Shown here: positions 52,324 through 54,748 of the stretch, in pieces
Layout of the letters: every line of letters starts with the position of its first letter
How positions within the stretch are numbered: position 1 is the first letter of the stretch
NCBI GenBank assembly: GCA_016191845.1
Contig: JACPVF010000013.1
Coordinates: forward strand, 62,001 to 126,000
DNA from: Chloroflexota bacterium
Lineage (GTDB): Bacteria; Chloroflexota; Anaerolineae; Anaerolineales; Villigracilaceae
Reading direction: 5' to 3'
Length of the DNA: 64,000 nucleotides
Notes under the pieces: model-generated
Told to the model about the DNA's origin: nothing
The model's database searches: none
What the model saw: only the letters and a program-made list of their open reading frames with translations
Program-made: the position numbers and the translations under genes

Positions 52324-53157
52324 ATGTCTCAGGACTTCAAAAATAGACCACTAAAACCAAGCGTGCCAGATATATCAGACCTCTTATTGCTAGCACAAAA
52401 AAATAAAACACTTTTAGAACAAAATGAACCGAAAATACTTGAACGACTGAACATTCTCAAGGACATTGTACACAAACCGTTTGTTCAAACTGTGCTAGAG
52501 CAAGATGTGAGCAACAGGGTGTTTACTAAAGGCACAGAGGATGCTCAGCAATATCTTGATATGTCTTCAACTTTTACATTACGCTCCATTTGCATCGCCT
52601 TTATTCTTGGTAGGGAATATGCTAATCATTACAAGGAAAATCCAAAAGCGATTATTCTTGCTGAAAAATTAGATAGCATCGCAATTCCCACATCAACACA
52701 AGATGAGCTTAAAAGAATTAGCGAATATGGCGTATTTTGGATTATGCGCCTTGATGAAATGTGTTTCTTTGCACAATATATTGATAAATCCACAATGCTC
52801 CACGGTCAAGATTTACACACATCACAGATGCAAACAACAATTTTAAATGCCTTTAAGGATGGTTTAGCTAGCTACTACGAAGAAATAATAAATACACCTT
52901 CAAATAAAGCTTCAAATAAGCTTTTTCTGGAAATGAGTGAGTCAGAAAAACAACAATTTGTCATTGACAAACTCTTACCAGCCATGGAAGACATCGCTCT
53001 TGAAAAACTAGCCGAAAGAAAAGCCGTAAAGAAGAAAACCATTGCTTATGTTAAGAAGGCAACGAAGGAACGTGATCGCAATGTTTCGGCCCAAATAGCT
53101 TTTTTTATCATTGCAGGCATAATCATTGTTATTCTAGTTCTTAGTTTTCTAAAATAA
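52324..53157 (+). CDS. Hypothetical tail-anchored protein, AT-rich
   Basis: A 277-residue soluble, helical and charged protein ending in one transmembrane helix (about residues 254-275, IAFFIIAGIIIVILVLS), so it is probably tail-anchored with the bulk in the cytoplasm. GAGGGA precedes the ATG. The coding DNA is markedly more AT-rich than all neighbours, with many AAA, AAT and TTA codons. This suggests recent horizontal transfer. I recognise no family. Confidence 0.7.
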   Translation: MSQDFKNRPLKPSVPDISDLLLLAQKNKTLLEQNEPKILERLNILKDIVHKPFVQTVLEQDVSNRVFTKGTEDAQQYLDMSSTFTLRSICIAFILGREYANHYKENPKAIILAEKLDSIAIPTSTQDELKRISEYGVFWIMRLDEMCFFAQYIDKSTMLHGQDLHTSQMQTTILNAFKDGLASYYEEIINTPSNKASNKLFLEMSESEKQQFVIDKLLPAMEDIALEKLAERKAVKKKTIAYVKKATKERDRNVSAQIAFFIIAGIIIVILVLSFLK

Positions 53158-54564: not shown

Positions 54565-54595
54565 TAAAAATAACGCCCCGATTTCTCGGGGCGTT
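54565..54595 (-). terminator. Attenuator terminator upstream of the aminotransferase
   Basis: Read on the minus strand, a 9-bp GC-rich stem (54595-54587 with 54580-54572) is followed by ATTTTTA, and lies 18 bases before the aminotransferase start. Its 5' arm, extended to 54600, can instead pair with leader bases 54653-54641 over 13 bp with one bulged A. Confidence 0.8.
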
Positions 54596-54603
54596 TGGTG
54601 TAC

Positions 54604-54711
54604 TTAGCTTGCTTGAACCTGTTGCAGTTCATCAGGCAACCACCAACGCCCCGTCACCGAATTGGTACGAGTGGTAGTGGTGGTCACATCAACGATGAGC
54701 TGTCTGGACAT
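54604..54711 (-). CDS. Thr/Trp-rich leader peptide (35 residues), candidate attenuator peptide
   Basis: The ORF starts eight bases after a -10 box and ends four bases before the terminator's extended 5' arm. Residues 10-14 are five Thr in a row and Thr also occurs at 16 and 20; residues 23-24 are a Trp pair in TGRWWLPDE. The Trp codons and the codons before them (54653-54641) form the strand that competes with the terminator. The Thr run (54684-54678) can in turn pair with the Trp codons. The peptide resembles amino-acid operon leaders in design; no homologue is claimed. Confidence 0.6.
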   Translation of the reverse strand: MSRQLIVDVTTTTTRTNSVTGRWWLPDELQQVQAS

Positions 54712-54719
54712 TGCGCGCA

Positions 54720-54748
54720 AGGATACCACCGTGATGAGGACGCGTCAA
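54720..54748 (-). promoter_or_regulatory. Promoter of the Thr/Trp leader transcript
   Basis: On the minus strand TTGACG (54748-54743) and TATCCT (54725-54720) are separated by 17 bases. The leader ATG begins eight bases after the -10, so the mRNA is nearly leaderless. Confidence 0.75.

Follow-up and report, generated by a model that had tools for sequence, protein, structure and literature searches.

A putative threonine- and asparagine-responsive leader-peptide attenuator, probably leaderless, before an aminotransferase gene of a Chloroflexota bacterium

Directly upstream of a class I/II aminotransferase gene in a Chloroflexota bacterium, a short open reading frame with a run of threonine codons and a Trp-Trp pair lies between a promoter-like sequence and an intrinsic terminator. 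The question raised by this locus is whether the arrangement controls the gene, and if so, which amino acid it senses and in which direction it acts. The DNA analysed, here called the window, is a stretch of 64,000 nucleotides. The original prediction, made from the window alone, was a leader-peptide attenuator in which Thr and Trp codons are both signals and a stall at Trp favours termination, as in a catabolic or dual-signal switch. The leader-peptide arrangement is confirmed here; attenuation with read-through on a Thr stall stands as a reading, while the Trp signal and the catabolic or dual-signal switch do not. Since the Trp reading fails and Thr and Asn are enriched before the antiterminator strand, the most likely reading is a classical ribosome-mediated transcription attenuator of ordinary biosynthetic logic, in which scarcity of threonine or asparagine would lead to read-through. 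Judged from sequence comparison, we give this a probability of about 0.83. The features are as follows.

54748-54743, minus strand: -35 element TTGACG, with TTGAC invariant across 64 aligned sequences
54725-54720, minus strand: -10 element TATCCT from the promoter scan, preceded by TG, with a spacer of 17 to the -35 element
54711 (ATG) to 54604 (stop), minus strand: leader ORF of 35 codons plus stop, MSRQLIVDVTTTTTRTNSVTGRWWLPDELQQVQAS
54684-54661, minus strand: region 1, putative control codons Thr-Thr-Thr-Thr-Thr-Arg-Thr-Asn, from the Thr/Asn richness of 64 leaders
54653-54641, minus strand: region 2, antiterminator strand CGGGGCGTTGGTG, overlapping the Trp codons, from the duplex, shuffles and pair counts in relatives
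54600-54587, minus strand: region 3, CACCAAACGCCCCG, which pairs with region 2 and also forms the 5' arm of the terminator, from the duplex and pair counts
54595-54572, minus strand: intrinsic terminator hairpin of 10 bp (regions 3 and 4), from the terminator scan and relatives
54571-54566, minus strand: U tract of the terminator, ATTTTT, from the sequence
54546-53242, minus strand: class I/II aminotransferase of 434 aa (PF00155, E 3.7e-22), the putatively regulated gene
52185-49336, minus strand: fusion of a glutamate-ligase-like and an M20 deacylase domain, 949 aa, from domain searches, a possible second gene

The 17-spaced promoter, the nearly leaderless ORF and the terminator that had been predicted before the aminotransferase were all located in the window. 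The promoter, TTGACG-17-TATCCT, scores 9/12, with the TG before the -10 element. The ATG follows the -10 hexamer by 8 nt, so that the transcript is probably leaderless, with the RNA starting at or next to the ATG; across 65 leaders the spacing from the start of the -35 element to the ATG is 36-42 nt. On its own the promoter is weak evidence, since 5 kb contains 7 promoter-like sites against 3.3 (sd 1.9) in shuffled sequence; terminator-like sites number 8 against 5.7 (sd 2.0). The aminotransferase gene begins 25 nt beyond the terminator.

It is conservation in relatives that raises the feature above chance. A single scan for relatives of the aminotransferase gave 115 matches, and the best 80 of these together with the window make up 81 loci; the 80 are titled Chloroflexi, Anaerolineales or kin, apart from one titled Acidobacteria. 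Leaders were recognised by one rule (TTGA or TCGA with C or T as the next base, an ATG 34-46 nt further on, a -10-like step, and an ORF of 18-60 codons), by which the arrangement is present in 65 of the 81 loci. The 16 loci without a leader by this rule are L035, L038, L052, L055, L058, L060, L061, L065, L067, L073-L076 and L079-L081. A contig end cuts the leader region of L038; in L060 the rule missed a Thr/Asn-rich ORF, seen by eye, that would start at a plausible GTG; and L055 and L076 contain ORFs with Thr that it did not admit. Loss of the leader from close relatives that retain the gene, which had been named as grounds for rejecting the prediction, was looked for among these loci. Only L035 (88% identical) and L038 are close, the others being 70-82% identical; L035 and the contig-edge L038 apart, the close relatives keep the leader. 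A chance arrangement of promoter plus terminator was rejected because of this conservation. The terminator is present in 64 of the 65 leaders, the exception by rule being L071, and most counts were therefore made on 64 leaders.

The pattern of change in these leaders differs along their length. The reading frame is preserved before region 2, where 201 of 263 gaps have lengths divisible by three, compared with 77 of 640 from region 2 to the terminator (both counted pairwise, in pairs that share ancestry and are not independent). The synonymous share of single-base codon differences is 392/845 in the leader's own frame against 185/821 and 124/848 in the other frames, over 127 non-independent pairs; a small excess is left when 13 non-overlapping pairs are taken (23/65 against 17/64 and 15/59).

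Covariation, suggested as a check on the prediction, is supported for the terminator and antiterminator by changes on both sides of a pair and less so by other measures. In the 64 sequences the terminator has 99.3% of 571 cells paired and 18 cells with both sides changed, its column pair 201-223 being CG in 51, UA in 12 and AU in 1; for the antiterminator the figures are 91.2% of 638 cells and 10 cells. The paired-cell and both-side figures of the two helices were attained by no shuffle out of 500, a result that is not to be read as a probability because the rows are related. In how many pairs had changed on both sides, however, 15 of the 500 shuffles equalled or exceeded the terminator and 141 the antiterminator; for the number of further pair types the corresponding figures were 218 and 24. 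When the antiterminator partner is slid by -3 or -2 columns, 8 or 7 both-side cells are still counted against 10 unslid, but pairing drops from 91.2% to 31% or 40%. One of the inner antiterminator pairs (columns 127-203) cannot form in 20 of the 64 sequences.

In the window, region 2 (54653-54641) pairs with region 3 (54600-54587) over 13 bp with one bulge, at -25.7 kcal/mol, in agreement with the antiterminator that had been proposed between the leader and the 5' arm of the terminator. Shuffled leaders give a mean of -12.6 kcal/mol for this duplex (sd 2.6, minimum -18.5; 40 dinucleotide shuffles, purpose-written script), which the window's duplex beats by 5 sd. In the relatives the mean z against dinucleotide shuffles is -3.46, with z < -2 in 52 of 64. 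The predicted pairing of the Thr codons with the Trp codons is likewise found, in the full-length minimum-energy fold of the window's leader, which combines a stem between the Thr codons and region 2 with the terminator (-52.1 kcal/mol, z -2.9). Its strength is that of recoded leaders, however: relative to synonymous recoding, the 1:2 stem has a z of -0.01 in the window and a mean of -0.51 in relatives, and relative to other species' region 2 the mean is -0.45. The 1:2 stem is not clearly under selection, being only weakly above chance in the relatives and showing no sign of it in the window.

To model a stalled ribosome, each of 64 leaders was cut off after region 3, stripped of the RNA that the ribosome covers or has already passed, and folded; the ribosome edge was assumed to lie 12 nt past the first base of the A-site codon. 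With a Thr stall, the window's leader is predicted to fold into the antiterminator (-31.5 kcal/mol). With stalls at Thr or Asn upstream of region 2, the antiterminator holds on average more than half of the 5' terminator arm in 63 of the 64 leaders, and the model thus favours the read-through that had been predicted for a Thr stall. With a Trp stall it does so in none of 61, as the model itself dictates by placing the ribosome on region 2. When ribosome-free leaders are folded, 2:3 pairing is favoured before region 4 has been made in 36 of 64, including the window, so that the gene may be on, and not off, when the leader goes untranslated. The distance from the first base of the stop codon to the start of the terminator is 10-18 nt in 46 of 64 leaders, and a ribosome on the stop codon would therefore sit against the foot of the terminator.

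Which codons probably carry the signal is best judged from the composition of the family. The 64 leaders contain 1220 residues before region 2, among which Thr accounts for 300 (24.6%), Asn for 197 (16.1%), Arg for 125 (10.2%) and Trp for 2 (0.2%). Thr, Asn and Arg are each found in all 65 leaders, and a candidate ORF with at least 7 Thr plus Asn, including at least 3 Thr, is present at 59 of the 81 aminotransferase loci. Within 13 independent pairs of leaders, no change is seen at 43 Thr and 36 Asn codons. Of the Thr codons that differ, 14 do so synonymously and 17 code for a different residue; all 16 differing Asn codons do the latter. These counts do not indicate strong protein-level selection in the 13 pairs, and the case for Thr and Asn rests more on family-wide composition.

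The Trp codons behave differently. At least one is present in 62 of 65 leaders, but Trp-Trp occurs in only 15, and the ORFs of L003, L053 and L069 have no Trp. The Trp codon lies inside the antiterminator strand GGGGCGTTGG, which is read in one frame in 44 and in another frame in 6 of 50 pattern-matched leaders. The nearest relative, L003, whose enzyme is 96% identical, has a leader (2797-2886) with one base fewer before region 2; it reads RGVGG instead of GRWW, both Trp codons being gone and the RNA strand intact. From these comparisons the Trp codons look like a coding by-product of the RNA structure of region 2. Sensing of Trp was rejected in view of the conservation pattern, the change of frame, and the T-box that the same genome carries at trpE (described below).

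What remains of the dual Thr/Trp or catabolic switch, in which a stall at Trp masks region 2 and so leads to termination, is its geometry, which does permit a ribosome at the Trp codons to cover region 2, and the presence of Trp in nearly all leaders. Yet that RNA is kept despite changes of frame, and a ribosome that has merely moved past region 1 has the same outcome, so that a Trp stall would add little; together with the loss of Trp from three leaders and the trpE T-box, this makes such a switch very improbable. It is only a little easier to suppose that the leader senses the general speed of translation and no specific amino acid. Any stall well upstream of region 2 yields the same fold, as this would need, but leader composition varies from gene to gene and tends to fit the amino acid of each gene, and we regard the idea as improbable. 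That there is no regulation at all, and that the terminator of an upstream gene happens to follow a chance ORF, would suit the promoter and terminator scans, which taken alone are only slightly above shuffles; the conserved order, reading frame and codon bias and the two mutually exclusive helices reduce its probability almost to nothing.

The alternative that deserves most attention is that only one of Thr, Asn and Arg is sensed, the others being present through region 1:2 pairing or by descent. The codons ACC and AAT match GGU and AUU of region 2 by complementarity, CCCGC stands opposite GCGGG in some relatives, and in the 13 pairs the synonymous changes are 0/16 for Asn codons against 14/31 for Thr codons, all of which would fit. 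On the other hand, the 1:2 stem is barely above chance, and the 13 independent pairs include 7 codon positions at which Thr and Asn stand in for one another, the two being found together in every leader. We therefore consider sensing of a single amino acid less likely than not, and prefer attenuation that would respond to scarcity of Thr or Asn.

In the preferred mechanism of Thr/Asn attenuation, RNA polymerase would start at the ATG or no more than about 2 bases from it, and a ribosome would read the leader from its 5' end. When charged Thr-tRNA or Asn-tRNA is scarce, this ribosome would be expected to stall in the Thr/Asn block, leaving region 2 free to pair with region 3; the terminator would be blocked, and the aminotransferase would be transcribed, together in most relatives with the ligase-like/M20 gene. 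When both tRNAs are plentiful, the ribosome would proceed over region 2 and halt at the stop codon, which lies close before the terminator in most leaders; the 3:4 hairpin would then form and transcription would end. Since ribosome-free leaders often prefer the antiterminator and there is little selection on the 1:2 stem, the main brake is expected to be the covering of region 2 by the ribosome and not the 1:2 stem.

The function of the putatively regulated gene is less easily read from its sequence. The solved chains nearest to it by sequence are named aspartate aminotransferase, and its structural model (mean pLDDT 79.5) lies nearest to the Thermus and Phormidium aspartate aminotransferases and plant prephenate aminotransferase. 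However, the best NCBIfam model named aspartate aminotransferase gives 79.6 bits against a cut-off of 550, and none of the 25 NCBIfam matches listed, out of 51, reaches its cut-off. Five paralogs of the same genome were scanned, of which three score far higher on aspartate-aminotransferase models, though below the cut-offs. Arg126 aligns with the Lys of GGKQAL in the Thermus enzyme, a residue that binds the distal carboxylate, and is invariant in 19 aligned family members. Because the codon run of the sister leaders described below tends to match the amino acid of the gene, our guess is that the aminotransferase belongs to aspartate-family metabolism; the lysine branch is made less likely by the scarcity of Lys codons (15 of the 1220 residues before region 2). 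That its reaction is plain aspartate formation is a tentative suggestion, to which we give somewhat less than even odds.

In 67 of 80 loci (the best 80 of 115) the aminotransferase is followed by a same-strand ligase-like/M20 gene, in 47 of them within less than 200 nt. The N-terminal, glutamate-cysteine-ligase-like half of the fusion shows a weak likeness (Pfam E 0.039, NCBIfam E 2e-5). In the window, a 277-aa ORF on the plus strand (52324-53157), which has no Pfam match, lies between the two genes. Among 74 loci with enough DNA, the start of the fusion gene was not found in 3 of 59 with a leader against 5 of 15 without (Fisher P 0.007, relatedness uncorrected). One reading of the pair is a protect-transaminate-deprotect step.

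A sequence model built from the 64 leaders was used to search for further sites. Fourteen further matches, chosen from those that cover the model fully or nearly so, comprise 10 before aspartokinase and 4 before hisG, with the window's own genome contributing one of each; the aspartokinase leaders are Thr-rich, most of them with Met, and the hisG leaders have a His run. Across 201 genomes there were 125 matches at E <= 0.1, many of them terminator-only rows that were not counted as leaders; the 30 best comprise 27 before the aminotransferase, 2 before aspartokinase and 1 before thrC. In the last (L107), a leader with six consecutive Thr precedes genes that, by familiar motifs, are presumably threonine synthase and then aspartokinase.

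In the window's own genome, the -10-to-ATG pattern has 25 matches with at most one mismatch, against 11 for a reversed control. Four exact matches and one with a single mismatch are leaders, all five apparently leaderless; another one-mismatch site is the start of the trpE T-box leader, and no such leader was seen at the remaining matches. These sites are listed here.

C4:54521 (L155), minus strand: hisG leader, HHHH
C7:16916 (L156), plus strand: aspartokinase leader, MTMTMTT
C13:171282 (L157), plus strand: chorismate mutase leader, YYFAWYFYGF (Phe/Tyr/Trp)
C18:105044 (L158), plus strand: argG leader, RTRRPQPTSQRR (Arg)
C10:274214 (L171), plus strand: aspS leader, NNNNNNNDD (Asn/Asp)
L186 1998-2294, minus strand: T-box on C10 upstream of trpE, just under the Rfam gathering score

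Two copies of aspS lie about 6 kb apart (C10:274451-276208 and C10:280427-282178), with the Asn/Asp leader before the first. The gene taken as trpE (PF04715) has a T-box scoring 90.1 bits (E 1.4e-19; the gathering score is 93), with UGG where the specifier codon would lie. The genome seems to mix T-boxes and leader peptides. For ilvB, which has another gene in front of it, and for asnB, where the upstream DNA of two of five hits was covered, we make no claim.

Relatives' chorismate mutase, argG and aspS loci were scanned for composition in 41 genomes per gene. At least 7 aromatic residues are found at 17 of 27 chorismate mutase loci, against 1/30 for aspS, 0/28 for argG and 6/81 for the aminotransferase; Thr/Asn leaders are found at the 59 of 81 aminotransferase loci noted above, against 1/30, 0/28 and 1/27 for aspS, argG and chorismate mutase. 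A threshold of six Arg is reached at 12/28 argG, 5/30 aspS, 4/27 chorismate mutase and 17/81 aminotransferase loci, and with Arg-rich leaders at other genes too this criterion alone is a poor one. At least 5 Asn/Asp with at most 2 Thr occur at 7/30 aspS, 2/28 argG, 3/27 chorismate mutase and 12/81 aminotransferase loci, and at least 2 Trp at 30/81 aminotransferase, 5/30 aspS, 2/28 argG and 5/27 chorismate mutase loci. For all these counts the best among several chance ORFs was used at each locus, with some upstream stretches cut by contig ends; argG loci L245 and L246, where the gene start is missing, were left out, and for aspS 30 with loci of 38 matches were scanned. Measured by z, the antiterminator is clear for aspS of the window's genome (-7.9) and, in another genome, for thrC (-2.7); it is weak before aspartokinase (-2.0), hisG (-1.8) and argG (-1.5), and by the arm definition used none was found for chorismate mutase (+1.5). 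For these leaders composition is the stronger evidence.

Taken as sequences, the codons of a leader tend to name the amino acid that is served, most clearly in the chorismate mutase and aminotransferase sets. A wider hypothesis, to which we give an even chance, is that Anaerolineales possess a set of leaderless attenuators, one per amino-acid branch, including argG (arginine), aspS (asparagine/aspartate) and chorismate mutase (mixed aromatic) sensors, and that the Thr/Asn member runs an undescribed two-gene aspartate-family unit. If true, the amino acid sensed by the leader would allow the reaction of the aminotransferase and ligase-like/M20 unit to be predicted. Where a phylum has few cultured members, the codons repeated in a leader hint at which amino acid an unassigned gene serves, and here the hint applies to an aminotransferase of unassigned role and its partner gene.

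It remains to compare this leader with known systems. No Rfam family matches the window at gathering score, including RF00506 (Thr leader) and RF00230 (T-box). Compared with thrL, the leader of the thr operon of Enterobacteria (RF00506), the present leader belongs to another phylum, has Asn beside its Thr codons, precedes an aminotransferase and not thrA, and would have its ORF at the very start of the transcript. T-boxes (RF00230) sense uncharged tRNA directly, without a leader peptide. Like the window leader they give read-through when the amino acid is scarce; in this genome one is found at trpE and none at the window locus. The trp leader of rhizobia, trpL, is reportedly leaderless, with its ORF at +1 as would be the case here, its sensor being Trp codons.

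Leader-peptide attenuation itself is a known mechanism (among related papers, consulted as excerpts, are PMC9413887, PMC4833913 and PMC3766115). In 2010, the authors of a Firmicutes case stated in the part of their paper seen here that, to their knowledge, such systems had been unknown beyond Proteobacteria and Actinobacteria (PMC2965389). In the papers listed and excerpts consulted we found no report of the mechanism in Chloroflexota, though a comparative study of that year (doi 10.1134/S0026893310010164) could hold cases. Leaderless genes, according to an extract of a survey, average 4.7% in the 4 of 12 Chloroflexi genomes where they were detected (PMC3160421). There is also a likeness with the attenuators predicted in Actinobacteria for trp, leuS, ilvB and cys, which also place a leader peptide before amino-acid genes, and of which the trp and leuS cases share with the window leader a terminator and antiterminator; as excerpted, those predictions concern Trp, Leu, branched-chain amino acids and Cys, with no aspartate-family aminotransferase among them, the word aspartate being absent from the text (PMC1262725). 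Beside these systems, a gene-matched set of leaders in Chloroflexota, apparently read from the first base of the transcript, would widen the range of the mechanism.
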